Assembly (NCBI GenBank): GCA_946186115.1
Contig: CAMHLV010000003.1
Span: 32,921-96,920, forward strand
Source of the DNA: an uncultured Prevotella sp.
GTDB taxonomy: Bacteria > Bacteroidota > Bacteroidia > Bacteroidales > Bacteroidaceae
Reading direction: 5' to 3'
DNA: 64,000 nt
Below are positions 30,135-62,378 of this stretch, piece after piece; position 1 is the first letter of the stretch; each line of letters begins with the position of its first letter. Below the pieces are notes generated by a model, which was not told where the DNA came from, did no database searches, and worked only from the letters and a program-made list of their open reading frames with translations. The translations under genes were made by a program, and so were the position numbers.

Positions 30135-30149
30135 ATCGTGCTTGAATAA

Positions 30150-33437: not shown

Positions 33438-33468
33438 ATCGTATTGTTTTTTAGTTTCATATTACTTA

Positions 33469-34950: not shown

Positions 34951-34985
34951 AAGCGTTTTGTTTTAATTTTGTTATTATTAATTAT

Positions 34986-35870: not shown

Positions 35871-35880
35871 TCAGTAGTTG

Positions 35881-35894
35881 AAACTATATAGTTT
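35881..35894. promoter_or_regulatory. Perfect 14-bp palindrome between the pectin operon and dusB
   Basis: AAACTATATAGTTT lies 10 bp upstream of the isomerase-like start, in the divergent region. It could be an operator for an AraC-type or other regulator; one copy only. Confidence 0.3.
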
Positions 35895-35938
35895 TACGTT
35901 ATTTAAGACGTTTTAGCACATTGCTTGTCATCAGTTTT

Positions 35939-35970
35939 TTTGGCAGTTTGGAATTTCTTGTGTATTTTTG
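35939..35970 (+). promoter_or_regulatory. Complete -33/-7 promoter for dusB
   Basis: TTTG at 35939-35942 and TATTTTTG at 35963-35970, spacer 20 bp. The transcript would begin just before the ATG at 35979. Confidence 0.7.
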
Positions 35971-35978
35971 CAGTCGCT

Positions 35979-36929
35979 ATGATGAAGATTGGTACGATAG
36001 AGTGGGGAGACCGTCCACTGTTTCTTGCTCCTATGGAGGATGTTACCGACATAGGGTTCAGGTTGCTGTGCAAGCGATTTGGTGCCGCTATGGTATATAC
36101 CGAGTTTGTCAGTGCTGAGGCTTTGGTGCGCGATGTTAAGTCAACCGTTAAGAAGCTGGTTATCAGCGACGAGGAGAGACCCGTGGGTATCCAGATTTAC
36201 GGGCGCGACGTAGATGCAATGGTTGAGGCCGCTAAGATTGTTGAGCAGGCAGGACCTGATCTGATTGACCTTAATTTCGGTTGCCCTGTAAAGAAAGTCG
36301 CCGGTAAGGGTGCAGGAGCCGGTATGCTGCAGAATATCCCAAAGATGCTTGAGATAACGCGCAAGGTGGTTGATGCCGTCCGTCTGCCTGTGACTGCCAA
36401 AACTCGTCTGGGGTGGAATCACGAGCAGCTTATCATTACTGAACTGGCAGAGCAGTTGCAGGACTGCGGTATTCAGGCACTCACCATCCATGGCCGCACC
36501 CGCTCACAGATGTACACCGGCGAAGCCGACTGGACACTAATCGGCGAGGTGAAGCGTAATCCGCGTATTCATATTCCTATTATAGGTAATGGTGACATCA
36601 AGTCGCAGGCCGATGCCGACCGTGCTTTCCAGCAGTATGGTGTCGATGCCGTAATGATAGGTCGTGCCACGTTTGGATGTCCGTGGATATTCAGTCGGCA
36701 GGAACTGACGCTGGATGAGAAGATTGATGTGCTGGAGGAACAGTTGCGCATCAATGTGGAGCGCATAGATGAGTATCGGGGAATACTGCACACGCGCCGC
36801 CATCTGGCAGCCACACCAGTATTCAAGGGCATTCCCAATTTCCGTGAGACGCGAATAGCAATGCTTCGGGCCGAAAAGCAAGACGAACTGCTGAACATCC
36901 TTGAGCGCTGTCGCGAACAATTGCGGTGA
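35979..36929 (+). CDS. dusB: tRNA-dihydrouridine synthase, DusB family
   Basis: Flavin-dependent reduction of uridine in tRNA D-loops. 316 aa from Met at 35979. FMN-site LAPMEDVTDIGFR, DLNFGCPVKKVAGKGAGAG (catalytic Cys), KTRLGW, IHGRTRSQMY, IGNGDIKS and IGRATFGCPW. The frame extends upstream to 35925, but the promoter falls within that part. An unrelated housekeeping gene lying between the two halves of the pectin locus. Confidence 0.95.
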   Translation: MMKIGTIEWGDRPLFLAPMEDVTDIGFRLLCKRFGAAMVYTEFVSAEALVRDVKSTVKKLVISDEERPVGIQIYGRDVDAMVEAAKIVEQAGPDLIDLNFGCPVKKVAGKGAGAGMLQNIPKMLEITRKVVDAVRLPVTAKTRLGWNHEQLIITELAEQLQDCGIQALTIHGRTRSQMYTGEADWTLIGEVKRNPRIHIPIIGNGDIKSQADADRAFQQYGVDAVMIGRATFGCPWIFSRQELTLDEKIDVLEEQLRINVERIDEYRGILHTRRHLAATPVFKGIPNFRETRIAMLRAEKQDELLNILERCREQLR

Positions 36930-36944
36930 TATTGAAAACAAAAA

Positions 36945-36977
36945 GTATAGGGGTTGCCATCACGGCAACCCCTGTAC
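36945..36977 (-). terminator. Terminator of the pectinesterase operon
   Basis: GTATAGGGGTTGCC pairs with GGCAACCCCTGTAC (one G.U) over ATCAC; the minus strand continues TTTTTGTTTTC. It may also limit dusB read-through. Confidence 0.8.
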
Positions 36978-37030
36978 TACAAAAAAGTTATTTACTATAC
37001 TATAAACCAAAACTATTTTTAATACCAAAA

Positions 37031-40000: not shown

Positions 40001-40963
40001 ACCCACGCGGCTGGCGTTGAACGACAGTTTCTTCGGAGTGAATGTCAGTGACTTCTTAGGCTTTAGAGTGAAGATGATAGCGCCACCCTCGTCTTGACTG
40101 CCCACTTGCTCTTTAGGTTGGAACTGCTGACGTATTACATCGGCATCGGTGCGCAGTCCCCAAGGTTCAATCTTGTCGCCCCATGACAGAGCAGCCACAG
40201 AGAACAAACCAGGTGCAGAGGCCGTAGCAGCGGTGACGATGTCAGACTCTTTCAGCGACCATGAGGCAGTAAAACCGCTCTCGTTGACGGCCACGGGGCC
40301 TTCGGCAACCTCGCCACTGATGCTGATTTCGTTCATGCGCCACTGAGCGGTAGCCTCGTTTTCGGCTATCAGTCGCACCAGCACCTGCTCCTTGTTGTTG
40401 GCTGAGAGCTTGACGGTATTGGTATTGTATACCCACCAGTTGGCTGCACCATCGTAGCCTCCGGCATCGCTCCACGTCTGACCGCCGTCGGTGCTGACCA
40501 CCATCTCCAGTTTGCGGACAGTATTGTCACCACAAGTGAAGGCAAAGGTAAACTCAATGTTCTTATAGCCCTTGGTGGGGAAACCGATCTCGAAGTACTG
40601 GTTGTGCTTCGAACCGTCGGTATAGTCAGTGATGCTGTTGGGGTCCTGGTCCTGATAGAGCGACATGATTTTGGCGTCATGATTAGCCATGATGCCCCAA
40701 AAGCGCGTACCCTTGGCCGATACGTAGTAGTTGCCTTGAGTGCCTGTAAACTGGTTGGGCAGGATTCTGGGAAGTGTCCCGAATCCGTTCCACCCTACCT
40801 GCGCCCATTCGTCGGTATTAGGTGTGTAAACATTTCCATCTACGGTGTAGCCCGTATCGAACGTCCATTTAGCCAGTTGCGTAGCGTCCTGCGCTGCTGC
40901 CGTCATTGGCAGCAGTGCGAGGATCGCCACAAGTAGTTTTAGTAGGTTGTTTTTTGTTTGCAT
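37031..40963 (-). CDS. Multidomain pectinesterase (CE8)
   Basis: 1310 aa, exported (signal KLLVAILALLPMTAAAQ). Order: beta-sandwich modules (about 25-420), a divergent InlB-type repeat (410-480, FGYHFAAWVDDEGNTV) and a related unit (490-570, FTGWEDNT), another beta-sandwich (575-760), a bacterial Ig-like Big_5 domain (765-855), then the CE8 right-handed beta-helix (about 870-1180) with QDTW near 989, GAVDFIYNGG near 1011 and LGRPWHGEPK near 1075, which carry the catalytic Asp pair, Gln and Arg. An Fn3-like module and a short C-terminal tag (IYDMNGRKLF, GINIVRMSDGR) resembling type IX sorting domains finish it. It removes methyl esters from homogalacturonan. It lies 28 bp downstream of the CE12-type gene, in one operon. 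Confidence 0.92.
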   Translation of the reverse strand: MQTKNNLLKLLVAILALLPMTAAAQDATQLAKWTFDTGYTVDGNVYTPNTDEWAQVGWNGFGTLPRILPNQFTGTQGNYYVSAKGTRFWGIMANHDAKIMSLYQDQDPNSITDYTDGSKHNQYFEIGFPTKGYKNIEFTFAFTCGDNTVRKLEMVVSTDGGQTWSDAGGYDGAANWWVYNTNTVKLSANNKEQVLVRLIAENEATAQWRMNEISISGEVAEGPVAVNESGFTASWSLKESDIVTAATASAPGLFSVAALSWGDKIEPWGLRTDADVIRQQFQPKEQVGSQDEGGAIIFTLKPKKSLTFTPKKLSFNASRVGTNGGKFDVVVVSGNQSTTVGEAITPQLAKESPYVSYHEFDLSNIPATDDFFYVKIYIMGVATNKQYAFSDVVITGDVAGTLEPVPSYSFSVKLGTEGAGSVSCTPAGAEFDEGTVLTVKATENFGYHFAAWVDDEGNTVSTENPYSFDIKANTSLTATYTKSNVYALNLTLEGGANDNLVQFSPVGNYVDGVHYYEEGTDVKLTALNNRILTFTGWEDNTTDAERIVKVNEDMNLMANFACADFIVGWDLYYDQPAKDRVADYKADSENAGMLSLRKADGTTNGWLTRGSSNGQENGKYAARIWKYLSEEWYFEISFSSKGYQNLTISSCLGDDYNTYSINNVEYSIDGTNFTKIGTFNPPARGWDGPKEFALPAEANDQQRVWIRWMPDRTSELIGVSSDYDGTSIAEIFVLADASGAADEQATLVASNPENGAKGVSRNGSIILNFDKKIKAGEGKATLVLDGSAVEEIAPIVSGKSAIFKYGGLKYNTQYTFQMPEGVLISRSGKAVAATEITFTTMERQQPEARLYDAIVDATGSVPAGFAGGVYTTVQAAIDAAPAQRGTPWLIFIKNGDYKEHVDVPKNKPYLYFIGQDRDKTVIKDDRLSGGENAVHVSVGATVVVNSDNVFFENLTMENIYGHEQQAGPQALALNTGGDRIAMNNVALLSYQDTWITTSTQKNRHYIKNSLIEGAVDFIYNGGDVYLDGDTLEINRPSGGYIVAPWHTADTKWGYVFQNNIIRQHPGVNVTDVWLGRPWHGEPKTVFINTQTFVPIPAKGWYNTMGGLPELWADYNTVDANGNPVDLSQRESYYYYTDSNTGQKVEKYNVKNYLTDEEAAQYTIKNVCGGDDNWQPDLLCEACDAPVVKEADGNVTWDAVPYAICYVVTKNGEVAGFTTETSFDGNAAADSQRAAGNDVWQVQAVNEFGGLSQKATANTATGIENVNLNGNVDINDNGGIYDMNGRKLFSMQRGINIVRMSDGRVVKIIQK

Positions 40964-40991
40964 AAAATGTGATTGATTTTAGTTATTTGAT

Positions 40992-42884
40992 TTAATTCAT
41001 GATTTTGCGAATACTTCCGTCGCTCATGCGGACAATGTTCAGACCATGCTGCAGCTGACTGTGCTGACGGCCGTCAAGGGTAAAAAAAGTGTGTGAGTTC
41101 CCGTTGACGTTATCGTTATCGTTAACGTTCTTTATCCCCGTTGTACTGGCATCGACAGCCATGCCGTGAATAGTCAGGTCGCTCAGACAGATGGTCTTGC
41201 CGTTGGCTGCACCGTTATACCAGGGATAGACGCGAACGAGCAGTTGTTGACCCTCTTTGAGTGTGATGACGGGCTTCGACTCCACGTACTGCGGATTGTT
41301 GGCTGGCATCTTTTTCATCTCAAAGATGGTGGTGCGCGTCTCGAAGTTGTCCGTCGAGTAGTATATATGACAGCACATGCCGTTGCCGCCACAGCCTGCA
41401 ACAAAGAGACTGATGGCATCCACCTTCAGCTCCATGCTGCTGGCGGGCTTGATGCCCCACTGGATATAGCGCTCGGGATTATCGTCGATTTCATCGGCAG
41501 GCCAGGCATCACCCGTCAACAGGTCGCGCTGCATTTTTCGCGAGGCCTCATAGCCCGTCCACTCAGGCCATACGGAGTTGGCATTGGGGTTTGAGTAGCG
41601 TTGCACGTACATGCCCTGGAAAGTCTCTGCGATGGCCGTTGCAGGTCCAGAGAGTTCGTAGCTGTCGTCCTTCTCCAGACGCCAGTATGCATTGACCTCC
41701 ACACCGCCTTCCAATACGATGGCTGAAGCAGTGATGGGAATATCGATTGTCTTGTCGCCCTGACGGACAGTAATGGTTCCGCTGAATGTGCCGTTCTCCG
41801 TCAGAGTCACCTGAGCGTAGAATGTCTGCACCAGTGTAGAAGCTGTATAGTTGGCGGTGAGGTTGCTGCTCCAGTTGGTCTTGTCGGTAGAGAGCATGAC
41901 GCCCTCTGTAGCGGCAATGGTGACTGTGCCCTCCTCGGGAGTGAGTCCGAAGCCGTTCAGTGTAAACTCCTTGGTGAGCGTCTGACCTTTGTAGGCCTCG
42001 CCCATGTCTCCGGTAGCGGGAGCCACGCTGATATCGGTGGGCAGTGTGATGTCGTCGGCCATAATACCCTGTGCCTTCATCAGGCGGGCACACTCGCGGG
42101 CTACCAGCAGGGCACCGGTGGTGTTGAAGTGGGTAGAACCCTCTCCATCGAATAGGTATTCATGGCACTTGGCATCGCCATAGCTTTCGTAGAGGTCGGC
42201 TGTGGCATTGGTCAAATCGATGAATGCCACGCCCTTCTCCTTGGCCAGCTGCTCGGAGTGGTAGGCATAGTCCATGGTATGGTCGTCGGCAGCCAGTTTA
42301 GGTCCGTCAACAGGACCTTTCTCTGTCAGTATCTTATAGCCGTCGCCCAGGTCGTGACGACCGTTACGGCGAATTTTACCGCCGCTGAAATAGCTGCGAC
42401 ATACGGGCGAACATATAATAGGTGTTGCACCCATGGCCTTGGCCTCGTCAACAATCTTACCCAGATTTGCCTTGTAGGTTGTAGAGGGAATGGAGCCGCG
42501 CAGATCGACGGCAGCGGCTGCCGTGGCGTCGCCGATGCTTTCGTAGTAGGCCTTCAACTGGTAGCCATCCATGCCACTGTTCTTCTCATCATTATGTGCG
42601 AAGGTGATGATTACGTAGTCGCCGGCCTCGACATTCTTCTTGGCCGTCTGCCACAATTCGTTGTAGCCACCATAGCTGTCGCGTCCGCCCTTGGCATAGT
42701 TGATGCTGGTCCAGCCGTTGGTGAGGAAGTTGCCGAAGTACATACCCCAACCGCGTGTCACGGTGGCAGATTCATCGTAAGGAGCCATCGTAGAGTCTCC
42801 TAAAGTGTGTACTTTCTTGGCACCGGTAGTAATAGAGCCGGCCATCAATGCCAGTGAGATTAGTCCTAATAGTTTTGTTTTCAT
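40992..42884 (-). CDS. Rhamnogalacturonan acetylesterase-like SGNH hydrolase (CE12)
   Basis: About 630 aa, exported (GLISLALMAGSITTGAK). SGNH blocks: I HTLGDSTMAPYD, II GGRDS, III ITFAHND, V GSTHFNTTG (near residue 252, numbered from the Met at 42890). This matches CE12 acetylesterases, which remove acetyl groups from rhamnogalacturonan or xylan. A Ca-dependent-like second region (290-600) is a beta-sandwich, and the C-terminus has a tag (FFTLDGRQHS, GLNIVRMSDGS) nearly matching that of the pectinesterase downstream. The start may be 42890 or 42884. A -7 motif is upstream, so this is the operon's first gene. Confidence 0.88.
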   Translation of the reverse strand: MKTKLLGLISLALMAGSITTGAKKVHTLGDSTMAPYDESATVTRGWGMYFGNFLTNGWTSINYAKGGRDSYGGYNELWQTAKKNVEAGDYVIITFAHNDEKNSGMDGYQLKAYYESIGDATAAAAVDLRGSIPSTTYKANLGKIVDEAKAMGATPIICSPVCRSYFSGGKIRRNGRHDLGDGYKILTEKGPVDGPKLAADDHTMDYAYHSEQLAKEKGVAFIDLTNATADLYESYGDAKCHEYLFDGEGSTHFNTTGALLVARECARLMKAQGIMADDITLPTDISVAPATGDMGEAYKGQTLTKEFTLNGFGLTPEEGTVTIAATEGVMLSTDKTNWSSNLTANYTASTLVQTFYAQVTLTENGTFSGTITVRQGDKTIDIPITASAIVLEGGVEVNAYWRLEKDDSYELSGPATAIAETFQGMYVQRYSNPNANSVWPEWTGYEASRKMQRDLLTGDAWPADEIDDNPERYIQWGIKPASSMELKVDAISLFVAGCGGNGMCCHIYYSTDNFETRTTIFEMKKMPANNPQYVESKPVITLKEGQQLLVRVYPWYNGAANGKTICLSDLTIHGMAVDASTTGIKNVNDNDNVNGNSHTFFTLDGRQHSQLQHGLNIVRMSDGSIRKIMN

Positions 42885-42934
42885 TGTCATTATTGTTTTT
42901 GTTTTCGTTATTCGTTTTCGTAAATTTCCGGCTG

Positions 42935-50489: not shown

Positions 50490-52877
50490 TTACTCCACGG
50501 TTGGTGAAACATTCTGACGCTCGTAGTAAGCCTTGTAGGCATCGCCGCCAAACTTCAGACCGAGGTCTTCGCCAGCCAGGGCATCGCAGACGCCTTTATA
50601 GGCCCACTTGCGCAGGAATGTGGCATCGAACAAGTTGGGCTTCTCGCCCTTCAGCCAGTATTCGTGCTCGTCGTCGGCATCGGTGAGCGACCAGATGGTG
50701 ATACCACTCTGCTGTGCCTCGGGAACATTCTCGAAGTAAGACTCGAATACGGTCTTATAGGCATCGGCCTGAGCCTTGTACTGAGCCGACGAGGGGTTAG
50801 AGGTGTTGAGCGAGATGTCGAGTTCGGTGATGCGGACCAGCTTGCCCGTGGCAGCCAGTTCGTTGAATTGCTTGTCAACCTGTGCGCGCAGGGCAGCCAC
50901 CTTCTCGGCATTGTTGGCAGCATCGTCGCTGGTACCGCTGAGTGTGATGTGCATCTGCGTACCGATACCATCTACGATGGCAGAGCCGTGGGCAGCATCG
51001 ATGTCTTGCACGAACTTGATGGCGGCAGCGCGCTTGCCATCGCTCGACTCCAGATTATAGTCGTTGTAGAACAGCTTGGTCTCGGCGGGCAGGAACTGGC
51101 GTGCGTACTCGAATGCCTTGACGGCATAGTCGTTCACGTAGTAGCCCCAGTAGAAGTGACCGCTGGCCCAGTTGAGCTCTAGTCCGTCTGTTGTGTTCTC
51201 AACAGGCTCCTGATCGTAGTTGCCGTCGCCGTCGGAACCGCCGAAGACTCCGTCAACGCCGCGAACCTTCTTTTCTCCGTCGGTGATAGCCTCGTTGATG
51301 ACGTCATAGCCCTGGGGTACGATGCCTTTGTCGGCCAGGTGTTCGGCCATACCCTTCACCCACGACTCCATGGCACCGAGCAGTGCTGTGCGCTTCTCCT
51401 CGGCGGTCTTCAGCACATAGTAGCTCTTGGCGGCACGGCGGGGAGCAGCGGCTCCCTGATTCTTTGCCGGTCCGAATTTGATGTCGTCGATATAATATGT
51501 AGCACCCACCTTGCCGAAATTGATGATAATGCGATTCACGTCGTCGTAGGCTGGTGTGAATTCTGCCTCGCAGAGCACCCACTCGGTGCCTACTTCGAAG
51601 GTGGTGTAGGCTCCTTGCGAACCGTAGGTGCTGCCGTTCTGATACTGGAACTGCAGCTGTCCGGCAGCCGACGATGACTTGGCATAGAACTGTATGATAT
51701 ACTTCTTGCTGTTGTCGAGATAGTCGCTGAAGGTATAGGCATTCTGAGCCTCCCAGAAGTTGCCGTCGCCCTTGTTGGCAAGCATGAGCGAGTGAGTACC
51801 ACCGTGCGACACGTTGTCAACTACTGCTGCATCAGCCTTGTTGCCGCCCCATGAGCCCCAGCCCTGAGTGTCGCCGCTCTCAAAGTCGCACGACACCATC
51901 AGTTCCATGGGCTCTTCCTGCTGTTCTCCAAACTCTATGTCGTCGATATAGTAGGTGCCACCCACCTTGCCGAAGTTCAGAATGATGCGATTCGCGTCGT
52001 CATAGGCCGTGATGGTAAACTTGGCTTCACATGTTGTCCACTCAGTGCCTACGTCGAAGGTGGTGTATCCGCCCTGCGAACCGTATGTGCTGCCGTTCTG
52101 ATACTGGAACTGTAGTTGTCCGGCAGCAGTGGTTGACTTGGCCTTGAAGCGGATGGTGAGCTCTACATCCATGGGGAGAGGCGTGTCGAAGGTGTAGGCA
52201 AACTGAGCCTCCCAGAAGTTGCCGTCGCCCTTGTTGGTCAGCACGGCAGCGGCAGAGCCGTCAGGACCGGCACCGCTGACCACCTCGACCTTGTCCTTGT
52301 TGCCGCCCCAAGAGCCCCAGCCGCCAGTGGTACCGCCGTTGAAGTCGGAGGCATCGCCAGCCAGCATGTTCTTGATGTCGCTGTCGCTCTCAACCACCAG
52401 TGTGGGCTTGATGAGTGATTTCAGGTAGGTCTGGTTCTGTTGTGTGTGCCAGAAGAAATTGTGGCCGTAGAGTGCCATGTTGTCGGCGATAATGGCATCA
52501 AGAGCGGGGTCGAGGTTGGCAAAGTTCAGTGCTCCCGTGTTGCCAACGATGGCATCGTGTTTCATGGCATTGCCCCACGTCACCATCTGGAAGTTGCCGG
52601 CAGCCAATTCGTGACGGCCGTCGTCGCCCATATAGATACTATTGCCTATACCCAGTCCCAGTTTCATGGCGGGGTGGTTGTCTGCAGCATAGGCTTTGAT
52701 GACGTCGTAGTTGGCCAGCACCTCTTTCACGGCCAGAGGAATCTCATCCTTAGTGACACCAGTATGTCCTTCGGGCGTTCCCCACTCCATAATCTGGTCG
52801 TCGCAGCCAGTGAGTCCAATAGCCAATAAACAATAACCAATAACCGTTATTGTGCTGAATATCTTTTTCATTGTCAT
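50490..52877 (-). CDS. GH10 endo-beta-1,4-xylanase with two inserted CBMs
   Basis: 795 aa surface lipoprotein (LLAIGLTGCDDQ, Cys25). The GH10 (beta/alpha)8 barrel begins at about 45 (LGLGIGNSIY, NFFWHTQQNQ) and is interrupted by two CBM4/9-type modules at about 155-315 and 320-475, then resumes. Catalytic acid/base Glu lies in YDVINEAI (near 525) and the nucleophile in RITELDIS (near 682). Both CBMs share AGQLQFQYQNGSTYGSQG. This is the split Xyn10C type of Prevotella/Bacteroides xylan loci, which cuts xylan at the cell surface before SusCD uptake. Confidence 0.95.
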   Translation of the reverse strand: MTMKKIFSTITVIGYCLLAIGLTGCDDQIMEWGTPEGHTGVTKDEIPLAVKEVLANYDVIKAYAADNHPAMKLGLGIGNSIYMGDDGRHELAAGNFQMVTWGNAMKHDAIVGNTGALNFANLDPALDAIIADNMALYGHNFFWHTQQNQTYLKSLIKPTLVVESDSDIKNMLAGDASDFNGGTTGGWGSWGGNKDKVEVVSGAGPDGSAAAVLTNKGDGNFWEAQFAYTFDTPLPMDVELTIRFKAKSTTAAGQLQFQYQNGSTYGSQGGYTTFDVGTEWTTCEAKFTITAYDDANRIILNFGKVGGTYYIDDIEFGEQQEEPMELMVSCDFESGDTQGWGSWGGNKADAAVVDNVSHGGTHSLMLANKGDGNFWEAQNAYTFSDYLDNSKKYIIQFYAKSSSAAGQLQFQYQNGSTYGSQGAYTTFEVGTEWVLCEAEFTPAYDDVNRIIINFGKVGATYYIDDIKFGPAKNQGAAAPRRAAKSYYVLKTAEEKRTALLGAMESWVKGMAEHLADKGIVPQGYDVINEAITDGEKKVRGVDGVFGGSDGDGNYDQEPVENTTDGLELNWASGHFYWGYYVNDYAVKAFEYARQFLPAETKLFYNDYNLESSDGKRAAAIKFVQDIDAAHGSAIVDGIGTQMHITLSGTSDDAANNAEKVAALRAQVDKQFNELAATGKLVRITELDISLNTSNPSSAQYKAQADAYKTVFESYFENVPEAQQSGITIWSLTDADDEHEYWLKGEKPNLFDATFLRKWAYKGVCDALAGEDLGLKFGGDAYKAYYERQNVSPTVE
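51470..52412. repeat. Duplicated CBM segments in the xylanase
   Basis: Two copies of about 430 bp, with the encoded core near-identical over about 45 residues. Confidence 0.75.
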
Positions 52878-52904: not shown

Positions 52905-54326
52905 TTATTGTTCATTGTCATCAAAGTCGTTCACCTTGATGGCAGTGGTGTTCACCACGCGGATGTTGTCGATGTAGATCTTCTGGGTGAAGAGCTTAGC
53001 GGGGTAGTTCAACACTGGAGTCACGCCCTCCTCGGTCTTGATGTCGCCATTGACAAAGAGGAAGAGGAAGTTGCGATACGAGCCTGCATTGCGGTCGTCG
53101 CTCACCTGTCGCAAGGTGGCAGCGGCAGCAGTAGCCTTGTCGGCATCGCTCTTAGCCGTCTCGGGGTTGTAGTTGCCAAATTTGCTCAGCGGCAGTGTGA
53201 TGGTCTGCCAGCGTTGGCCTGTTGTGAATGCCTGGTGGGTTCCGTCGTCGTTGAGCCAGGGAATCCACACAGCAGCGGTATTCTTATACTGTGCCGAGAA
53301 CTTGGTGCAGTCTGAGTTCCAACCATAATTTGAGAGGTTGTTCTGCAACGAGAATTCCAGCTGACCACTCTCATCCCACGGCTCTGGACAATAGATGTCG
53401 AACTGCAGGGCCAAGTTGGAAGCTAATGTTGTCTCAGGAATGATGCTGAACATGCGCGACCAGTCGTCGTTGGCATTGTCGTTACCTGCCGTAGCCCACA
53501 GCAGTGAGTTGCTGCCGGCATCCAAACCACCGGCATCCAGTTTTACCTGAGGTACCAGCATGGCCACCTTGCCGCGTCCTGTTGCAAGAGGATCGCTTAC
53601 GAGATCGTCGTTGCTATAGGTAGCCGACCATGAACCCAGCTCTCCCTTTCCGTCGAAATCAGTGACGAAACATCTGAAGTCGTTGAAATAAGCAGGGGTC
53701 ACCGCCGTGCCATTAGCTCCCTCACTGGTGATAGAACCAGCCTCCGTGACTCCATCAGGCATGGTGAATGAATACCACTTACCATCCTCGTCGCTGATTA
53801 TGCCGCTTGTAATCTCTATGCCACCAGGCAGTGTCACCTTGGTGGTCTCCTGCAGGTTAGTACCATATACGTTAACGGTCTCACCAGCCTTGGGCAGGGT
53901 GTTGTCACAACTGCTGATGCTGGGGGCGGCAGCACGGATGGTAAACTTATATACCAGCTTGTTGCTGTCGCTCTTGTATAGGGTGATAGTATTGCGTACA
54001 CTCTCGTCAGCCTTCTCTACGGGTGTGTCGCCATTGAGTGTTACCCACACGTTGTTGTCGGTCATCAGGGCATTGTTGAAGTAGGTCTCATAGCCATTGA
54101 TGTAAATCTTCTTTAGGCCCATAAAGCCCGAGCCCTGGATGCGCAGCAGCTGTCCCAGACGGGCAAATTCCACCTCGCGGTCCTTGTTGACCTCATCATT
54201 GATATTCTCAAGGAATATCTTGTCTATCGTCATTTGTGTCGTACTGCCACCGTTGTCGTCGTCCTTACAGCCCGTAAACACCACAGCTGCGATGGCCAGA
54301 CACAGGAAATATTTCATTGTCTTCAT
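52905..54326 (-). CDS. Surface xylan-binding lipoprotein (SGBP)
   Basis: 473 aa lipoprotein (AIAAVVFTGCKDDDNGG, Cys20); the KDDD after Cys resembles a surface-export signal of Bacteroidota. Two IPT/TIG-like Ig domains (about 40-215) precede a C-terminal ligand-binding beta-sandwich (220-473, YCPEPWDESGQLEFSLQNN). Same place and architecture as the BACOVA_04391-type or XusE binding protein. It holds xylan at the surface for the xylanase downstream (27 bp). Confidence 0.88.
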   Translation of the reverse strand: MKTMKYFLCLAIAAVVFTGCKDDDNGGSTTQMTIDKIFLENINDEVNKDREVEFARLGQLLRIQGSGFMGLKKIYINGYETYFNNALMTDNNVWVTLNGDTPVEKADESVRNTITLYKSDSNKLVYKFTIRAAAPSISSCDNTLPKAGETVNVYGTNLQETTKVTLPGGIEITSGIISDEDGKWYSFTMPDGVTEAGSITSEGANGTAVTPAYFNDFRCFVTDFDGKGELGSWSATYSNDDLVSDPLATGRGKVAMLVPQVKLDAGGLDAGSNSLLWATAGNDNANDDWSRMFSIIPETTLASNLALQFDIYCPEPWDESGQLEFSLQNNLSNYGWNSDCTKFSAQYKNTAAVWIPWLNDDGTHQAFTTGQRWQTITLPLSKFGNYNPETAKSDADKATAAAATLRQVSDDRNAGSYRNFLFLFVNGDIKTEEGVTPVLNYPAKLFTQKIYIDNIRVVNTTAIKVNDFDDNEQ

Positions 54327-54363: not shown

Positions 54364-56142
54364 TTAAAACAGGTCTGCATCAGTTACTTCACGCTCGCCA
54401 AACTCGTAGGCAATAGTCTGAATGTTACCGCTGGCATCAGGTTTCAGAAGCGGATTCTTGGTCTGGTCGGTATCAGCGATAGGCAGTGTCAGGTTGGCTG
54501 CTGTTGCTACAGAAACGCTGGGACCGGGAGCCACATAGGTGTCGGGCAACTTATATTCGTGCGTAGAGGCTGTATAGTAGCTGGCATTGCGATGCTGATT
54601 GTTGACATAGTTGACAACCTCGGTCTGCTGATAGTATCCGCGACGCACCAGGAAGTACCAGTACAATCCCTCGAAAGCAGTCTCCACACGGAACTCATGA
54701 CGCAGGTCTTCATAGGTCACCTTCTGCTTGGCAGGCATGCCAGCACGCTGACGTATGGTGTTAAACAGTTTCAGGGCTGTTGCATCAGTGGTCTGGAACA
54801 CCATCTGTGCATTACCGTGTATATCGACACTGCTTTGAGCATACTGCAGGCAAGCGTCAACATAGTTCAGATACACCTCGGCCAGACGCAACATATATGT
54901 GTTGATGCCAGAGTTGTTGTTGACGGCAAATCCGTTGACGGCATTGGTGCCGATGACATACTTCTTAATGTTGGCACCCTGGCTGCCAGCACTCTCTGTC
55001 TCGCCATAGATATATGGCTTCTCGGGGTCGGTAGATAGTTCGGGGTAAGCTTCACCATAGCTGGCTACCGAGTAGTGCCGACGAATAGCATCATCAACGA
55101 TACTGTTGTCGAGGGTTTCGTCCTTATATTGCTTCAGTTCTTCCCACAAATCCCACGAGCAGTAGGTTGAACCACCCCATGAGTTACCCTGATTCACCTG
55201 AGTACTCCAAGCCAGGAAACGAGTCATCGACTGAGCCAAACCACTGCTGGCACCAGCCTGGAACTGCAACTGGAACATGCTCTCGTCATTATTGTTCTGC
55301 GTGCTGGCAGCAAACAGGTCGGCATAATTGCCCAGCAACTTGTAAGGACCTTCGTTGATGGCCTTCATTGCAGCCTGCTTGGCAGCGTTCAGATAATACT
55401 CATTGCGCGTGCCAGTGTTTCTGTCGGTGGTCACGTTGCTGCCGTCGTAACGTCCGCTGGTAGTAAGGCCAGCCATTGACAAATAAAAACGGCTCAGCAT
55501 ACCATATGCAGCATACTTATTGACACGGCCTGCACCAGGAGAAGAGGCAGGCAGATTGACTGCTGCATACTCCATATCGCGGATAGCAAACTCAATGACA
55601 TCGGCCAGCGGGGCTGGCGACAGCACGTAGTTGTTGACCAGGTTCTGGGTGTTGGTATATATAATGCCACATCCCCACAGTGAGCCAATGTACCAATATG
55701 CCAGTCCGCGCATAAAGCGAGCCTCGGCAACACCCTGACGCTTGGCAGTCTCGCCGACACCACTGGTCGAGAAGTTGGTGATGTTGTTAATGGTATTGTT
55801 AGACTGGGCAACCACTGAATAGAGTGCTCCCCACGCTTCCGACAAGCCCGTTGACAGACCAGTCTCTGTGAAGTTGGTGTAGGGGTAAATGTAGTCAGAA
55901 TACTGAGCGGTGATATTGTTGGCTCGTCCGTCGCCCATGCCATAGTAGAACTTGTCGTTAAAGTCGTACCATACATAGCTGTAGAGCGGATACACGGCTT
56001 GCGAGACAGCATCGTCACTGGTGAAGAAGTTGCTCTGGCCCAGCTGATAGCTGTTCTCCTGATCCAGAAAGTCCTCGGCACAACTGCCCAACGAGATCAT
56101 TCCTGCCAGTGCTATTGTATATTTTAATATGCTAGTTTTCAT
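54364..56142 (-). CDS. SusD/RagB-like lipoprotein (xylan locus)
   Basis: 592 aa. Lipoprotein signal IALAGMISLGSCAEDFLDQ (Cys21). SusD features: VAEARFMRGLAYWYIGSLWG near the TPR helices and MLRLAEVYLNYVDACLQ, with RGYYQQ-type C-terminal. Binds xylo-oligosaccharides and lids SusC. The open frame starts at 56190, but the additional N-terminus (KNSETQKLKNSR) is read from a GAGTTTTTGAG repeat; the Met at 56142 starts the signal peptide. Confidence 0.94.
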   Translation of the reverse strand: MKTSILKYTIALAGMISLGSCAEDFLDQENSYQLGQSNFFTSDDAVSQAVYPLYSYVWYDFNDKFYYGMGDGRANNITAQYSDYIYPYTNFTETGLSTGLSEAWGALYSVVAQSNNTINNITNFSTSGVGETAKRQGVAEARFMRGLAYWYIGSLWGCGIIYTNTQNLVNNYVLSPAPLADVIEFAIRDMEYAAVNLPASSPGAGRVNKYAAYGMLSRFYLSMAGLTTSGRYDGSNVTTDRNTGTRNEYYLNAAKQAAMKAINEGPYKLLGNYADLFAASTQNNNDESMFQLQFQAGASSGLAQSMTRFLAWSTQVNQGNSWGGSTYCSWDLWEELKQYKDETLDNSIVDDAIRRHYSVASYGEAYPELSTDPEKPYIYGETESAGSQGANIKKYVIGTNAVNGFAVNNNSGINTYMLRLAEVYLNYVDACLQYAQSSVDIHGNAQMVFQTTDATALKLFNTIRQRAGMPAKQKVTYEDLRHEFRVETAFEGLYWYFLVRRGYYQQTEVVNYVNNQHRNASYYTASTHEYKLPDTYVAPGPSVSVATAANLTLPIADTDQTKNPLLKPDASGNIQTIAYEFGEREVTDADLF

Positions 56143-56149
56143 AATTCTC

Positions 56150-56200
56150 AATCTTGAGTTTTTGAGTTTTTGGGTTTCTGAGTTTTTCAACTCATCAACT
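56150..56200. repeat. GAGTTTTTGAGTTTTT iteration
   Basis: AT-rich repeat between SusC and SusD of the xylan locus. Confidence 0.6.
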
Positions 56201-56206
56201 TTTTAA

Positions 56207-59200
56207 TTAAAATTGAACGTTCACACCGACGGTATAGATACGAGGTGATGGATAGCGGCTGTAGTCAACACCGTTGAGCAGGGCATCGCCACGCATCGAA
56301 CCCACTTCAGGATCAAACCCGTCATACTTGGTGATGGTAAAGAGATTCTGGATGTTGCAGTACACCTTGGCATTGCTGAGGTAGATCTTTTGCACCAGCT
56401 TGCGGGGCAGAGTGTAGCTGAGCGACACGTTCTGCAGACGAATGTAGCTGCCGTCCTCAACGTAGGCATCGCTCACGCGGTTGTTCTTGTTGACACCGCT
56501 CTCTGTTGACAGGCGAGGCATAATACTGCTGGTGTTGGTAACATAATAGTTACGATAGTCGTCAGGACCATTCTCATCATACTTGGCCAGACGTGCATAG
56601 TCGAGAACGGTGGTCAACTGGTTACTCGTAGAACCGGTGATATCGAGGAAACGACGGCCATAATTCAGAATCTTATTGCCATAAGAACCGCTGAACTGGA
56701 TGCTCAGGTCAAAACCCTTATATGAGAAAGTGTTGCCAAAGCCCCAGGTGAACTTAGGTTCAGGATTGCCTATGAATGTCTGGTCATTGTTGTCGATGAC
56801 ACCATCGCCATTGATATCTTCATAGATAAAGTCGCCGATGAACACACCACCTGTTGTGGGTGAAGTAGCAATGCTTGCACCTTCGGGCAGTGCTACAGTC
56901 TTGATATTGCCATTGGCATCCTTGTAATAGAAGTCCTCGGGCTTGTCGAAACGTCCGATGACCTTATAGCCCCAGAACTGTCCGATGGGTTCTCCGACGA
57001 TGGTGTTAGTGACAGTAGCTGTCTCTGAACCAATCTGCAAGGTCTTAGGCAGCGTACCGGTCTCGGTGTCCAGCGATGTTACCTTGTTGCGGTTCAGCGA
57101 GAAGACCACATTCGAACGCCACTGGAATTCCTTGTTCTCGATATTGACGGTGTTCAGCGTCATCTCGATACCCGTGTTGCGCAGGCTGCCGACATTACCC
57201 CATGGATTGGTAGCGGCACCGTACTTTGAACCGCCGCCCGAGCCGAGGAATGCAGGCAGATCGAGTCTCATCAGCAGGTCGTTGGTCTTTTTATAGTACC
57301 AGTCGAAGACAAAGTCGATGCGACCGCCAAAGAGCGACAGGTCGAAACCGATGTTGGTAGAATATGTTGTCTCCCATTTCAGGTCCTGATTGGCATTATT
57401 AGCATTCAGCACACCTACGCCCCAAGTGGTGGTGTAGTTGGCCAGCATAGCCATGTAAGCCCAGTCTTCTACGTTCTGGTTACCGGTGGTACCCCAGCCC
57501 AAACGAAGCTTCAGGTTGCTGATGACCTTGTTGTCTTTCAGGAAGTTCTCCTGGCTGGCACGCCATGCGAAGGCTGCTGAGGGGAACCATCCCCAACGGT
57601 TGTCCTTGTAGAACTTGCTGGAGCCGTCGCGGCGCAGCGTTGCAGTCAAGAGATAACGATCGTCGTAATTATATAGAGCACGTCCGAAGTAAGAGAACAG
57701 CGACGTGTTGTTCTGGTAACCATCGATATTGACATTGGCACCTGTGGTCTCACCAGCGCGGATGTCAATCACCGAGTTTGAGAGATAACCCTGATTAGAA
57801 GCATTCATGTTCTCCCAGTAGTTATGGCTCATCTCCTGACCTACCATCACATTCAGATTGTGCTTCTCTGCAATGGTACCGTTATAAGTCAGGATATTTC
57901 GCCACGACCAGTACTTGGAATCGTTCTTGTACCATGCACCGTCGCGCTGACTGCTCTCGCGTACGCCAAACTTATAATCGGGCTGATAGGTCTTGGTCTT
58001 GTTCAGGTTGTAGTCGGCCGACAGCTCCGTCTTCAGCGTCAGTCCCTTATACAGCGTTGCTTCCAGATAAGTGTTGATGCGGAAGTTCAGACGCTTGGCA
58101 TAGTTGGTCTTTATCTCGGCCAGAGCCACGGCATTGTCGGGCATCCACTGGTCGTCGGGACCGTCGTAGCCTCCCTCGGGGTTGCGCACTGCCACAGAGG
58201 GCTGCGAGCGCAGGGCTGTCATGATGATGTCCCAGTTCTTCTCCATCTCCTGCTTCGAGTCTGACAGTGAGAACGAGATGCCGCCCTTCAGCCATTTCTT
58301 CAGCTCTGTATCCAGATTACCGCGGAGTGTCTGACGGCGGAAGCCTGTGTTGATTGCTATACCGTCCTGATTGAGGTATCCGGCCGAGATGGCGTATGTG
58401 GTTTTGTCGGATCCTCCCGCCAGCGAGAGACTGTGATTGGTCATGAAGGCGGTCTTGAACAGCTCGTCTTGCCAGTCGGTACCCTCGCCTAACAGCTCCG
58501 GACGTATGAACGAACCCACGGCTGTCTTGATCTGGGCATCGGCAATGTCGTTGTAATGCTGGGCATACTGCTTCAGGTTCAGCACATCCAGCTTCTTGGG
58601 CATCTGCTGCCATCCCACGTAGCCGTCGTATGTCACGGTAGCCTCGCCAGCCTTACCTCGCTTGGTGGTTATCATGATGACACCATTGCTTGCGCGCGAA
58701 CCATAAATAGCTGTAGCAGAGGCATCCTTCAGAATGTCCATCGTCAGAATGTCGCTGGGGTTGATGCCTGCCAGCGGGTTGGTGTTGCCGTTGTCAGAAC
58801 CGTCGGAATCAATAATGACGCCGTCGATGACAAAGATTGGCTGGCTCGATGCATTGAGCGAGTTAGTACCGCGGATGCGGATGGTAGATGAACCACCGGG
58901 AGTACCGGTATTGGCCTGAATCTGCACACCAGCGGCACGGCCCTGCAGTACCTGGTCGATGCTGGTGGTGACCGACTTCTCGATGGCTTTGTTGTCAACC
59001 TGTGTTACTGCACCCGTAAGGTCTGACTTACGCATCGTACCGTAACCTACTACTACCACTTCGTTCAGCAGTGTCTCGTCTTCTGAGAGCATCACGTTGA
59101 TTTGGCTCTTGCCATTCACCTTGACTTCCTTGCTCTCGTAGCCTACATAGCTGAACACCAGCGTGGCATTAGCCTGAGCGTCGATGGTGTAGTTGCCGTC

Positions 59201-59383
59201 GTAGTCGGTAATCGTACCACCCTGAGCTCCTTTTACTTTTACTGTCGCTCCGATGACGGGGCCGTCGGCAGCCGTCACGGTACCCTTGACAGTGATCTTC
59301 TGCGCATACATCCCTATGGGAAGCATAAAGAGCAGGAAAATCACAACAATGGTACATTTTAAAACTTTACATGTGTGATTCAT
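56207..59383 (-). CDS. SusC/RagA TonB-dependent transporter (xylan locus)
   Basis: 1058 aa, signal peptide (CTIVVIFLLFMLPIGMYAQ), N-terminal carboxypeptidase-like domain (VKGTVTAADGPVIGATV), TonB box (LLNEVVVVGYGTMRKSDLTGAVTQ, in part), plug (TMDILKDASATAIYGSRASNGV), barrel and final strand RIYTVGVNVQF. First gene of SusC/SusD/SGBP/GH10, so imports xylo-oligosaccharides. The frame extends to 59440, but the Met at 59383 begins the signal peptide. Confidence 0.95.
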   Translation of the reverse strand: MNHTCKVLKCTIVVIFLLFMLPIGMYAQKITVKGTVTAADGPVIGATVKVKGAQGGTITDYDGNYTIDAQANATLVFSYVGYESKEVKVNGKSQINVMLSEDETLLNEVVVVGYGTMRKSDLTGAVTQVDNKAIEKSVTTSIDQVLQGRAAGVQIQANTGTPGGSSTIRIRGTNSLNASSQPIFVIDGVIIDSDGSDNGNTNPLAGINPSDILTMDILKDASATAIYGSRASNGVIMITTKRGKAGEATVTYDGYVGWQQMPKKLDVLNLKQYAQHYNDIADAQIKTAVGSFIRPELLGEGTDWQDELFKTAFMTNHSLSLAGGSDKTTYAISAGYLNQDGIAINTGFRRQTLRGNLDTELKKWLKGGISFSLSDSKQEMEKNWDIIMTALRSQPSVAVRNPEGGYDGPDDQWMPDNAVALAEIKTNYAKRLNFRINTYLEATLYKGLTLKTELSADYNLNKTKTYQPDYKFGVRESSQRDGAWYKNDSKYWSWRNILTYNGTIAEKHNLNVMVGQEMSHNYWENMNASNQGYLSNSVIDIRAGETTGANVNIDGYQNNTSLFSYFGRALYNYDDRYLLTATLRRDGSSKFYKDNRWGWFPSAAFAWRASQENFLKDNKVISNLKLRLGWGTTGNQNVEDWAYMAMLANYTTTWGVGVLNANNANQDLKWETTYSTNIGFDLSLFGGRIDFVFDWYYKKTNDLLMRLDLPAFLGSGGGSKYGAATNPWGNVGSLRNTGIEMTLNTVNIENKEFQWRSNVVFSLNRNKVTSLDTETGTLPKTLQIGSETATVTNTIVGEPIGQFWGYKVIGRFDKPEDFYYKDANGNIKTVALPEGASIATSPTTGGVFIGDFIYEDINGDGVIDNNDQTFIGNPEPKFTWGFGNTFSYKGFDLSIQFSGSYGNKILNYGRRFLDITGSTSNQLTTVLDYARLAKYDENGPDDYRNYYVTNTSSIMPRLSTESGVNKNNRVSDAYVEDGSYIRLQNVSLSYTLPRKLVQKIYLSNAKVYCNIQNLFTITKYDGFDPEVGSMRGDALLNGVDYSRYPSPRIYTVGVNVQF

Positions 59384-59427: not shown

Positions 59428-59435
59428 CAAATTTA
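59428..59435 (-). promoter_or_regulatory. -7 promoter motif for the xylan operon
   Basis: CAAATTTA on plus is TAAATTTG on minus, 45 bp upstream of SusC; lies in the gap after the regulator gene. Confidence 0.45.
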
Positions 59436-59446
59436 GACATTTACGC

Positions 59447-62260
59447 TCAAATGCCTGTTTTTGCATGTTTCATGGTTGTTTCATTTTGTTTCATTTCTGC
59501 ATACTCTGTAGGTGTCATGCCAAAGTGTTTCTTGAAAACAGTAGAAAAGTGGGCCTGATTGTTGAATCCAACAGAGTATGCCACCTGGGTGATATTTATC
59601 TTCTTATTGCCTATCAGGCGTGCTGCCTGTTCTAGTCTGACATTGCGGATAAACTCACTGGTAGAGAGACCAGTCATCTCCTTCATCTTGCGGTGCAGCT
59701 GGGCCCTGCTGATACCTACGCTCTTGGTGAGCGACTCTACGCCGAAGTCGGTATTCGACAGGTTTTCGTTGACGCTCTTTAGCACCCTCTCCATCAGGGC
59801 ATCGTTGTTGTCCTTCACTCTGACAGCCTTTATCTCTCCACCCTCTTCTGATGAACCGAAGACTTTTCCGCGCAGCCATTTCATGTTCTGCTTAAGGTCG
59901 CTGATAATTAGGTGTAGCCGTTTTTCGGCCAGATAGCGTCGCCAACTGAAGGCAAACATGGCTCCGAATGCTGCCACGATGAGAAAGTAGAGGGCATAGG
60001 CCCATGGGGTTTTATACCAGGGTTTCTGGATAGTGATGGTGATGGTATTCGTCGTTTCCGATATAGCACTGCCCGCTTTGGCCTTTATCTCAATGGTGTA
60101 TCGTCCGGGTTGCAACTGGTTGAACACCAACTGGTTGTTGCCTTCATTGGTTTGCATCCATCTGCCCTGATGGTTTAGGCGATACAGGAAGACAATATTC
60201 TCGGCGTTGTGATAGTCGAGCAGCGAGAACTCCAGGGTGAATGAATTGTCGGAGTAGGGTAGCTCGAATTGGTGTTGCAGGGGGTTGAGGGTCTTGCCGC
60301 TGGCAGTAATGCGCGTGAGGAATGTAGGCCCAAGCAGTTGTCTGTTGCTGCTCACTTGATGAGGGTGGAATGTCACCAGTCCGTCGGCTATGCCAAAACT
60401 TATACGGTCGTCGCTGTGGTGTATTATTGCGCCGAGCACATATTCATCGGTTATCAGAGCGTTGCCTGCGATGTGGCCAGTCAGTCGGCCTTGCTTCTCG
60501 TTGTATTGCCAGATACCCATTGTGGTGGATATCCAGATGTCGCCATTCTTGTCGGCGGCCATGGCACATATCATTTTGTCGTGCAGCGGTTCGGTGCCTG
60601 CCACTTCGCTTGTCTTGTTTTTCTTCCTGTCGTAACGGTAGAGTCCGCTCTCGGTACCTATCAGGATGTCGCCGCCTGCCGTTTCACACGTGGTATAGCA
60701 CTGCTTGCCCTCCAGCAGCGTGTTCCATCCGAGGCTGTTGAACACATATCCATCGGTAAGCATCATCGACAGGCCGTTGGTAGTGCATATCCACAGCACA
60801 CCATGCGAGTCGAACATAAGTGCCTTTATCCAATCGTTGCACAGATATCCGCCCTTCCGGCCTGTTTGTTGCATGCTGAGCAACACACCTTGTCTGGCGT
60901 CTGGGTCGTAGGCATACAGTCCGCTTCCGAAGGTGCTGATATACAGCCGTCCGTCGGCATCCTCGGCCAGGCAGTTAAGTCCGCGTCCTTCCAGGGTAAG
61001 CTCTGGGCTGGCATTGCCTGTGGATGGGTCGTAGCGGTATAGCACGTTCTCGGCCGTGAGCCAATAGCGACCTGTCTTGCTGCGGCAGATGAGGCGTGTG
61101 CCCTTTGGCGATTGTGGATGCGAGGTGACGCGCCCCATGCTGTCGAAATGATATACCCCGCTGTTCTGCACCGTACACCAGGTACCACCGCTGCCGTCGG
61201 GTGTTATTGACGATACTCCGCTGCCCGTCAGGTAGTGCTGTTGCGACAGACTATATATATAAAAAGGTGACTGCTGTTTCGACATCACCATCAACCCCTT
61301 GGAATAGCAGGCCGCCCACAGGTTCTGGTCTTTGTCTTCCATCACGTCAACTACGTTGGCGGTATTCAGGTCCATATCAGCATTGTCGCTCACCATGGCC
61401 GTCAGCTGTTGCCTCCCTTTGGATATCTTCATAAGTCCGCTGCCCGATGTGGCTAAATAGATGTTGCCTTCTCTGTCGATCGTGGCATCCTGTATGCTTA
61501 CGTTGTCGGCGAGTGCCGACAGGTCGAAGCCGGCATCACCGATGCTCTCCGTCTGATAGTCGAATGCCAGGATACCATTCATGCAGACTATGAGCAGCCT
61601 CTTACTGTATTCCAAGAATTTCACGGGTTGACCGCATGACGACTCGTAGTCGCGTGTGGCCACTTGACGGCTGCCCTGCTCAACGAAACGGGTAAACGTC
61701 GCTACATGGCTGCTGCGCCACAGGCGTCCCTCGCGGTCAATATGCATACAGTAGTAGAATCTGTCGATGTTGCGACGGTTGTAGCTGCCTTCGTAGTGTA
61801 TTGGGGTGTCGTTGTGTTGCGAGTAGAGGCCGTATCCTGCTGTACCAATAAGCAGTCGGCCGTCGCGGTGTTCGGTCAGCGCATTTATTCGTGGCGTCCT
61901 GTTGTCGGGGAATGTGTATCTGTGGAAAAGGTCTCTCTCATAATCGTAGCGCACCAGTCCCTTTGAGCACCCCACCCATAGCTGTCCTTGATGGTCGATG
62001 AACAGCGACGAAATCTCATTGCCATTGATGGTGGTAGTGTCTGTCCTGCTGTGAAAGTATGAGGTGTAGCGGTATCCGTCAAACTTGTTCAGTCCGTACT
62101 CCGTGCCAATCCAGATATAGCCATACCTGTCTTGACATACACAGGTAATGAGTCCGCTCGACAGCTTGTCGGCAGTGTATAGATGTCCTGTTTCAGCGCT
62201 ACACCATATAGAGTTGATGAGGCTGAACAACAGGATGCTGAGTCTCAAAAATCGTATCAT
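59447..62260 (-). CDS. Membrane propeller/AraC regulator without kinase (xylan locus)
   Basis: 937 aa. Signal peptide/first helix (FLRLSILLFSLINSIWCSAE), two-component-regulator propeller repeats (DRYGYIWIGTEYGLNKFDG, DHQGQLWVGCSKGLVRYD, NGDIWISTTMGIWQYNE) filling about 30-640, Y_Y_Y domain (about 690-760, RYTIEIKAKAG), transmembrane helix (WAYALYFLIVAAFGAMFAF), about 60-residue linker and C-terminal AraC/HTH_18 (GISRAQLHRKMKEMTGLSTSEF). A standard hybrid regulator would have HisKA, HATPase and receiver in the linker; none is there. It lies next to the xylan operon, which it probably controls by sensing xylo-oligosaccharides. Confidence 0.9.
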   Translation of the reverse strand: MIRFLRLSILLFSLINSIWCSAETGHLYTADKLSSGLITCVCQDRYGYIWIGTEYGLNKFDGYRYTSYFHSRTDTTTINGNEISSLFIDHQGQLWVGCSKGLVRYDYERDLFHRYTFPDNRTPRINALTEHRDGRLLIGTAGYGLYSQHNDTPIHYEGSYNRRNIDRFYYCMHIDREGRLWRSSHVATFTRFVEQGSRQVATRDYESSCGQPVKFLEYSKRLLIVCMNGILAFDYQTESIGDAGFDLSALADNVSIQDATIDREGNIYLATSGSGLMKISKGRQQLTAMVSDNADMDLNTANVVDVMEDKDQNLWAACYSKGLMVMSKQQSPFYIYSLSQQHYLTGSGVSSITPDGSGGTWCTVQNSGVYHFDSMGRVTSHPQSPKGTRLICRSKTGRYWLTAENVLYRYDPSTGNASPELTLEGRGLNCLAEDADGRLYISTFGSGLYAYDPDARQGVLLSMQQTGRKGGYLCNDWIKALMFDSHGVLWICTTNGLSMMLTDGYVFNSLGWNTLLEGKQCYTTCETAGGDILIGTESGLYRYDRKKNKTSEVAGTEPLHDKMICAMAADKNGDIWISTTMGIWQYNEKQGRLTGHIAGNALITDEYVLGAIIHHSDDRISFGIADGLVTFHPHQVSSNRQLLGPTFLTRITASGKTLNPLQHQFELPYSDNSFTLEFSLLDYHNAENIVFLYRLNHQGRWMQTNEGNNQLVFNQLQPGRYTIEIKAKAGSAISETTNTITITIQKPWYKTPWAYALYFLIVAAFGAMFAFSWRRYLAEKRLHLIISDLKQNMKWLRGKVFGSSEEGGEIKAVRVKDNNDALMERVLKSVNENLSNTDFGVESLTKSVGISRAQLHRKMKEMTGLSTSEFIRNVRLEQAARLIGNKKINITQVAYSVGFNNQAHFSTVFKKHFGMTPTEYAEMKQNETTMKHAKTGI

Positions 62261-62278: not shown

Positions 62279-62286
62279 CAAAGGTA
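62279..62286 (-). promoter_or_regulatory. -7 promoter motif for the xylan regulator
   Basis: CAAAGGTA on plus (TACCTTTG on minus), 18 bp upstream of the Met at 62260, thereby excluding the upstream start at 62281. Confidence 0.55.
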
Positions 62287-62332
62287 CAAAATAATAATTA
62301 AAAGTGAAGAGTTAAGAGTGAATTATTTGGTA

Positions 62333-62378
62333 CCGCCCAAATAAAAATTTTCAATTTTCCATTATCAATTCTCATTTA
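62333..62378. repeat. AT-rich iteration upstream of the CoA-transferase
   Basis: TTTTCAATTTTCCATTATCAATT. A second short iteration (AAATCGTAAATAGTAAATCGT, 62536-62564) directly precedes the next start. The 62287-62494 gap contains no gene. Confidence 0.5.

Follow-up and report, generated by a model that had tools for sequence, protein, structure and literature searches.

The regulator gene of a Prevotella xylan locus raises the question of how a glycan signal can reach the DNA when the phosphorelay is missing from the sensor protein. According to the available text of PMC3878776, PMC3243724 and PMC10766802, PUL regulators are typically hybrid two-component regulators (HTCSs), SusR-like proteins or ECF factors. 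The window, meaning the whole stretch of 64,000 nucleotides from an uncultured Prevotella sp. that was analysed, carries the regulator gene on its minus strand (59447..62260). Its frame is intact, with 937 uninterrupted codons from an ATG at 62260 to a stop that ends at 59447. The 937-residue product matched only Reg_prop, SGL, Y_Y_Y, HTH_18 and HTH_AraC in a Pfam search, and HisKA, HATPase_c and Response_reg were not found at E ≤ 0.001. The motif counts gave the same picture. The H-box was present in 105/105 HTCS relatives of full length as against 0/15 of the kinase-less proteins, and for the receiver phospho-Asp motif (D-x-MP) the counts were 104/105 and 0/15, respectively. Both results confirmed the make-up proposed in a first-pass annotation, namely propeller, Y_Y_Y and AraC domains without a kinase or receiver. 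From the sequence comparisons described below, the regulator is probably a transmembrane one-component switch that descended from an HTCS from which HisKA, HATPase_c and, except for its last helix, the receiver were lost.

The chain starts with a signal-peptide-like stretch (residues 1–20, by eye). The ectodomain, composed of propellers and Y_Y_Y (residues 21–748; 60017..62200, minus strand), was assigned by Pfam, and its AF2 model matches the HTCS sensor structures of BT4663 and BT3049. The Foldseek target TM-scores were 0.79–0.82 for the BT4663 chains and 0.75 for BT3049, so that the predicted fold is of the HTCS sensor type. The alignment with BT4673 was poor over the whole length (0.47–0.48). 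Some PDB titles label HTCS proteins 'one component', and this label was given no weight as evidence. The transmembrane (TM) helix follows at residues about 752–779 (59924..60007, minus strand), at the hydropathy maximum. Behind it are a stretch matching the receiver helix α5 (residues 776–800; 59861..59935, minus strand), which was located with a linker-only HMM and carries the signature NM[KHR]WL[RH], and a low-confidence tail (residues 801–817; 59810..59860, minus strand; pLDDT < 50 at 796–816). The AraC-type DNA-binding domain (DBD) occupies residues 820–922 (59495..59803, minus strand), and its HTH_18 match (5.2e-23) is above the curated cut-off. The whole model has a mean pLDDT of 82 and a pTM of 0.58. 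It draws the TM helix and the relic stretch as a single helix of residues 752–800, the relic part of which is weak (pLDDT 62 and 50 within 781–800, with low confidence beyond residue 780). Since the TM helix ends near residue 779, the AraC-type domain begins near 820 and the HTH_18 match begins at 845, the gap between them is about 40–65 residues, in agreement with the earlier estimate of about 60. The domain search of this gap had been set beforehand as a possible refutation. It found neither HisKA nor a receiver, and one receiver helix seems to be retained. A hidden receiver in the linker is ruled out, because Pfam finds none and the match is limited to one helix. The protein has the Reg_prop/Y_Y_Y periplasmic sensor and the C-terminal AraC domain of an HTCS, and it has no HisKA and HATPase_c in the chain and no phospho-Asp receiver. 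Its TM helix and DBD, with kinase and receiver absent, are those of a transmembrane one-component regulator (TTR), and its HTH_18 domain places it in the AraC/XylS family.

The descent of the regulator may be read from the linker. Among 1306 relatives found, the best 120 comprised 15 kinase-less proteins (the window protein included; 902–966 residues) and 105 full HTCSs. In a joint alignment of the 15 kinase-less proteins with 23 HTCSs, the linker aligns with the last receiver helix and the joint behind it. A profile of 37 columns, built from the 15 kinase-less linkers only, matched 105/105 HTCSs among the best 120 relatives. The register was almost constant: 104/105 matches start at column 7 and 7 residues past the receiver KPF, with one each at 6. 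Most of the single matches are weak, with scores from 4.1 to 23.9 bits and a median of 8.5; the independent E-value was below 0.01 for 94/105 HTCSs. Among 525 shuffled sequences the highest score was 4.0 bits, as against 4.1 for the lowest HTCS. A TM-linker-DBD profile was also searched against 397, 387 and 349 genomes (overlapping sets). This linker type was found only in the window's genome, and the HTCS matches, among those listed, start at column 34–36, which is the α5 helix. The signature NM[KHR]WL[RH] is found in 15/15 kinase-less linkers and 0/105 HTCSs, and an NVRRLRGK-like form in 104/105 HTCSs and 0/15 kinase-less linkers. In the reverse test, the linkers of seven kinase-less proteins in the window's genome were scored against three receiver-α5 profiles with 300 shuffles each. 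With the profile made from the HTCSs of its own clade, 2/300 shuffles scored as high as the window linker; with the other two, 84/300 and 39/300 did, so that the linker is not distinctive there. We infer that the linker is the remnant last helix (α5) of a lost HTCS receiver. A lone last receiver helix is best understood as the remainder of a receiver, and therefore a loss of kinase and receiver is the favoured direction.

The relatives of the regulator appear to have a mosaic history. In a tree of 38 rows made from an alignment without the linker, kinase-less and kinase-bearing proteins interleave, with 6 changes, at least 5 of which are forced by starred branches. Most of the evidence for this pattern comes from protein clusters derived from metagenomes, which were analysed as protein sequences, and the trees are unrooted and cannot by themselves separate gain from loss of the kinase section. 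All trees were quick searches. A single kinase-less clade was rejected in the ectodomain tree (lnL 268 lower, p-AU 0.0028). It was not rejected in the DBD tree (lnL 4.8 lower, p-AU 0.27), which is poorly resolved and groups 14/15 kinase-less rows at 87%. The TM helix and linker are nearest to those of another kinase-less protein in 15/15 cases, the linker identity being 62–95% to the nearest kinase-less protein as against 33–51% to any of the 23 HTCSs. When the ectodomain was compared in three segments, an HTCS was the closer match for two or more of them in three of the 15 proteins (P0001, P0006 and P0008), and the DBD of P0006 is also HTCS-like (97% vs 88%). On the simplest reading, the TM-linker module of the window type would have arisen once and then been recombined onto different sensors. 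Because this module looks like one of single origin, yet the ectodomains interleave, it seems that outputs with and without a phosphorelay have exchanged their sensors.

A kinase-bearing counterpart is found at the same locus in another Prevotella. In the window, the regulator gene is followed on the minus strand by genes for a susC-like TonB-dependent transporter (56207..59383; the start at 59383 was picked by signal-peptide position), a susD-like protein (54364..56190; SusD_RagB, SusD-like_3), a surface glycan-binding protein (SGBP; 52905..54326; SGBP_B_XBD) and a GH10 xylanase-family protein with CBM_4_9 domains (50490..52877; Glyco_hydro_10, CBM_4_9). The first-pass annotation had suggested a comparison with kinase-bearing xylan regulators of other Prevotella, and in L022, a Prevotella sp. 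MAG from roe deer abomasum, a full HTCS occupies the regulator's place. The order in L022 is an acetyl-CoA-hydrolase-like gene, a hemolysin-III-like ORF (by eye), the HTCS, GH67, a GH35/DUF5597-type gene, SusC, SusD and the SGBP. The identities between L022 and the window are 91% for the acetyl-CoA-hydrolase-like protein, 64% for the HTCS, 86% for SusC, 76% for SusD and 72% for the SGBP. The window ectodomain is sister to those of the L022 HTCS and P0005 (97, starred), and is 69% identical to the L022 / P0005 HTCS over 725 columns. Neither the GH67 nor the GH35-type gene lies between regulator and susC in the window, so that the regulator gene adjoins susC at its 3' end. A search of the window's genome, an assembly of 126 contigs that is 79% complete, gave no GH67; it was run without a positive control. 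Elsewhere in the window, a second SusC/SusD pair is accompanied by DUF4957/DUF5123, pectinesterase and GDSL proteins (27903–42890), and this region is likely a pectin-type PUL.

A possible DNA target is common to both kinds of regulator. Three ATGAAACA repeats at 10–11 bp form a predicted operator at 59466..59494 (minus strand), still inside the regulator gene at its 3' end, and they are kept upstream of susC in L022, L123 and L116. About 30 bp behind the repeats there is a TAnnTTTG box, which we take to be the -7 box consensus and which aligns in the window, L022, L123 and L116. TAAATTTG (59428..59435, minus strand) is the predicted susC -7 box, and TACCTTTG (62279..62286, minus strand) that of the regulator gene itself, by sequence only. 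The block of ATGAAACA-like repeats, spacer and box accompanies the kinase-less regulator in the window, an HTCS in L022 and L123, and a second kinase-less type in L116, where the first repeat is degenerate. The block was not seen in L029, L030 and L041. The repeat matched once in the window and in 0 of 100 shuffles, and once in the window's whole genome at up to 3 mismatches. It was surveyed in a selection of 60 genomes, of which 40 had a regulator match and 20 had none at the cut-off used. Ten sites with at most 2 mismatches were obtained, in 10/40 genomes with a regulator homologue and in 0/20 without. Nine of these ten best sites lie upstream of a SusC homologue, with an identity of 71–100% in seven cases, among them the window itself, and of 41–42% in two; for the tenth, L150, no SusC match was found within the 1.7 kb of available sequence. 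In the other nine site-bearing genomes, the best regulator match lies in a frame of 1295–1455 residues, which is HTCS size. Site and regulator are on one contig in G205, G207, G006, G195 and G070, and on different contigs in G095, G389, G229 and G052. When up to 3 mismatches were allowed, the 60 genomes gave 46 matches as against 8 for a reversed control pattern, and most of these 3-mismatch matches are probably chance. The susC-upstream repeat is a putative operator of this regulator. Because repeat sites co-occur with both HTCS-size and kinase-less regulators, the sensor type and the DNA target appear to be kept and the step between them differs.

The susC repeat had been reached via a motif built from the regulator promoters of L029, L030 and L041. 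Upstream of these kinase-bearing regulators, direct repeats GTTTCWATTTGTYT occur exactly 34 bp apart (L029:9876 and 9910, L030:9822 and 9856, L041:9873 and 9907), and they are possibly the regulators' own operators. A 5+5 bp palindrome, TTTGGGCGGTACCAAA, located 66–81 bp upstream of the regulator ATG (window 62326–62341), was rejected as an operator, as it is absent upstream of the regulators of the five relatives examined. The C-termini of P0001 and P0024 both read ETTM[KQ]HAKT, which in the window is encoded by the susC-upstream repeat, hinting that the P0024 gene may also lie directly before susC.

The kinase appears to have been removed in more than one way. G391 carries a second kinase-less xylan-locus regulator of 925 residues (L116:6535-9309), in a locus with GH67, GH35-type, GH10 and GH43 genes (for GH67 and the GH35-type gene, L116 was compared with L022 by eye). 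Its junction differs from the window type: the HisKA H-box helix is retained and leads straight into the last part of the receiver-DBD joint, with nothing else left of kinase and receiver. The H-box His is replaced by Lys (MRFLINATHDIRSPL in kin, MRFLLNLKKEVKSAL in G391). The same junction is found in P0121 and P0122, two of the best 120 relatives, and the G391 regulator was placed among other HTCSs in the tree and not with the window type. In a draw of 398 genomes from the genus, 178 match at E ≤ 1e-100, and among the matches listed only G000 and G391 are kinase-less. Three further candidates by frame length were dropped, G285 and G276 as frame-interrupted HTCSs and G309 as a frame that runs off its contig. 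The window's genome encodes six further Reg_prop-AraC proteins that lack both kinase and receiver (L003, L013, L014, L015, L016 and L021), and one of them, the kinase-less propeller-AraC regulator at L014:1206-3593, has its end at window 1–675. The same genome has an ordinary HTCS in L018 and a protein with propeller, Y_Y_Y, receiver and AraC domains without a HisKA or HATPase_c match (L017:1567-5319). An α5-like stretch is present in two of the six other kinase-less paralogues. For L016, 0/300 shuffles scored as high with all three α5 profiles; for L003, it was 0/300 with the pooled profile, and 8/300 and 12/300 with the other two. The linkers of L013, L014, L015 and L021 showed no α5 trace with these profiles, being no better than 13/300 shuffles. 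The L003 family is large, as no kinase or receiver domain is listed for any of rows 1 to 105 out of 120. The next 14 full-length rows (P0335–P0348), which are the nearest full-length kin of the family, keep the H-box and phospho-Asp and show no HATPase_c, according to the domain table, the alignment and motif counts, and a domain rescan of 4/14. This hints at a stepwise erosion of the phosphorelay in the L003 lineage and provides a lead.

For the signal path, the following mechanism is proposed. A dimeric ectodomain would close on a xylan-derived oligosaccharide outside the cell membrane. The choice of xylo-oligosaccharide as the ligand, which the first-pass annotation had also named, is a reading from the PUL context and published HTCS work. 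The closure motion would travel through the TM helix and the relic α5 helix toward the AraC domain, and it would set two AraC domains on the repeat, by which polymerase would be recruited at susC. In Bacteroides HTCSs, the unphosphorylated receiver clamps the DBD via its S/CHIP motif and D and K of the DBD, as described in the available text of PMC11253607. Because this clamp is gone, the off state would be set by geometry. The corresponding receiver α3-β4 motif is SDIP in 93/105 of the HTCS kin, as against the S/CHIP reported for Bacteroides, and at the DBD position aligned with the clamp D, most HTCSs and 11/15 kinase-less proteins have N. These differences are only suggestive that the clamp may have been weaker or altered before the kinase was lost, and a D–N pair could still bond. 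By recombination, sensor halves would have passed between output halves with and without a kinase. With the phospho-His and phospho-Asp domains both absent, the direct transmembrane one-component sensor of the first-pass annotation stands as the best reading of the regulator, in which a membrane-tethered AraC dimer would respond to the ligand.

The main rival is a constitutive activator, in which the two AraC domains, freed of an inhibitory receiver, would stay tethered on the dimeric sensor. The PUL would then be always on and the sensor irrelevant. The available text of PMC11253607, in which DBDs tethered on a dimer tend toward activation and the receiver is the brake, lends it some weight, the regulator being without that brake. 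However, in the alignment of the window protein with its kinase-less kin, the ectodomain has kept its full length and is 56–69% identical overall, and sensor halves were apparently re-used. Since a dead sensor would be expected to decay, its conservation and re-use speak indirectly against constitutive activity, which we regard as rather unlikely. A release from the membrane, in which a ligand-triggered protease would cut the linker and free a soluble AraC domain, would suit the predicted disorder of residues 796–816. But the linker is conserved (62–95% to the nearest kinase-less kin) and has a helix signature, which is beyond the needs of a cut site, and this idea is quite improbable. More doubtful still is a separate cognate kinase acting by phosphotransfer. 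Other kinase proteins are encoded in the window's genome (L018, L019), but the regulator has neither a receiver nor a phospho-Asp motif to take the phosphate; a separate kinase would find nothing on it to phosphorylate, in agreement with the signalling without phosphotransfer proposed earlier. Finally, despite the fragmentation of the assembly into 126 contigs, an assembly artefact or a decaying gene is hardly credible and is ruled out by the intact frame and by 14 further kinase-less proteins (902–966 residues) with the same linker signature, so that the kinase-less form is not an assembly accident.

The one-component switch derived from an HTCS can be compared with known systems. The HTCS of L022 / P0005 has the ectodomain, TM position, AraC domain, locus and susC-upstream repeat in common with the window regulator, which differs in lacking HisKA, HATPase_c and the receiver except its last helix. 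The TTRs, as described in the available text of PMC10269533, likewise have a TM helix and a DNA-binding domain on one polypeptide without a kinase. Their descent from two-component systems is raised there as a possibility, whereas here the descent may be traced through the receiver-helix relic and the kinase-bearing counterparts at the same locus. The Neisseria Rsp, a PilS-receptor/PilR-DBD chimera in the same source, is likewise a fusion of the membrane sensor of a kinase to the DNA-binding domain of a response regulator. However, its domains are unrelated, it is described as a pilA repressor, and the available text of PMC10269533 describes no receiver-helix linker. SusR-like PUL regulators are likewise membrane-spanning activators, which have a portion in the periplasm and bind DNA with a cytoplasmic portion, in the available text of PMC3878776, where they form a separate family, and they are likened to the window regulator by description. 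The kinase-less propeller-AraC family of L003 / P0230 has the same domain order and an α5-like stretch after the TM helix, but its nearest full-length kin are HATPase-less HTCSs and its identity to the window protein is ~25%. Kinase-less transmembrane regulators are already known as a class from the available text of PMC10269533, and the bare domain order is common in the window's genome. In the accessible text of the open-access literature, no description was found of HTCSs with the kinase excised, nor of the receiver-helix relic, the sensor exchange with kinase-bearing homologues, the same-locus counterpart or the common repeat.

In a wider sense, it is about an even bet that the glycan-sensor phosphorelay of Prevotella is an optional cassette. 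It would have been excised several times, with α5 left as a signal rod from the membrane to the DBD. The same xylan sensor and operator would work with middle parts that either have or lack a kinase, and sensor halves would pass between these by recombination. If the proposed descent is true, these regulators would be a natural experiment on the purpose of the HTCS kinase, as related sensors that share both the locus and the operator-like repeat occur with and without a phosphorelay. The receiver α5 would be named as the element that seemingly survives the excision, so that the coupling path could be tested by short chimeras. Besides, the family would offer a traceable route from two-component to one-component transmembrane regulators, a possibility raised in the available text of PMC10269533.
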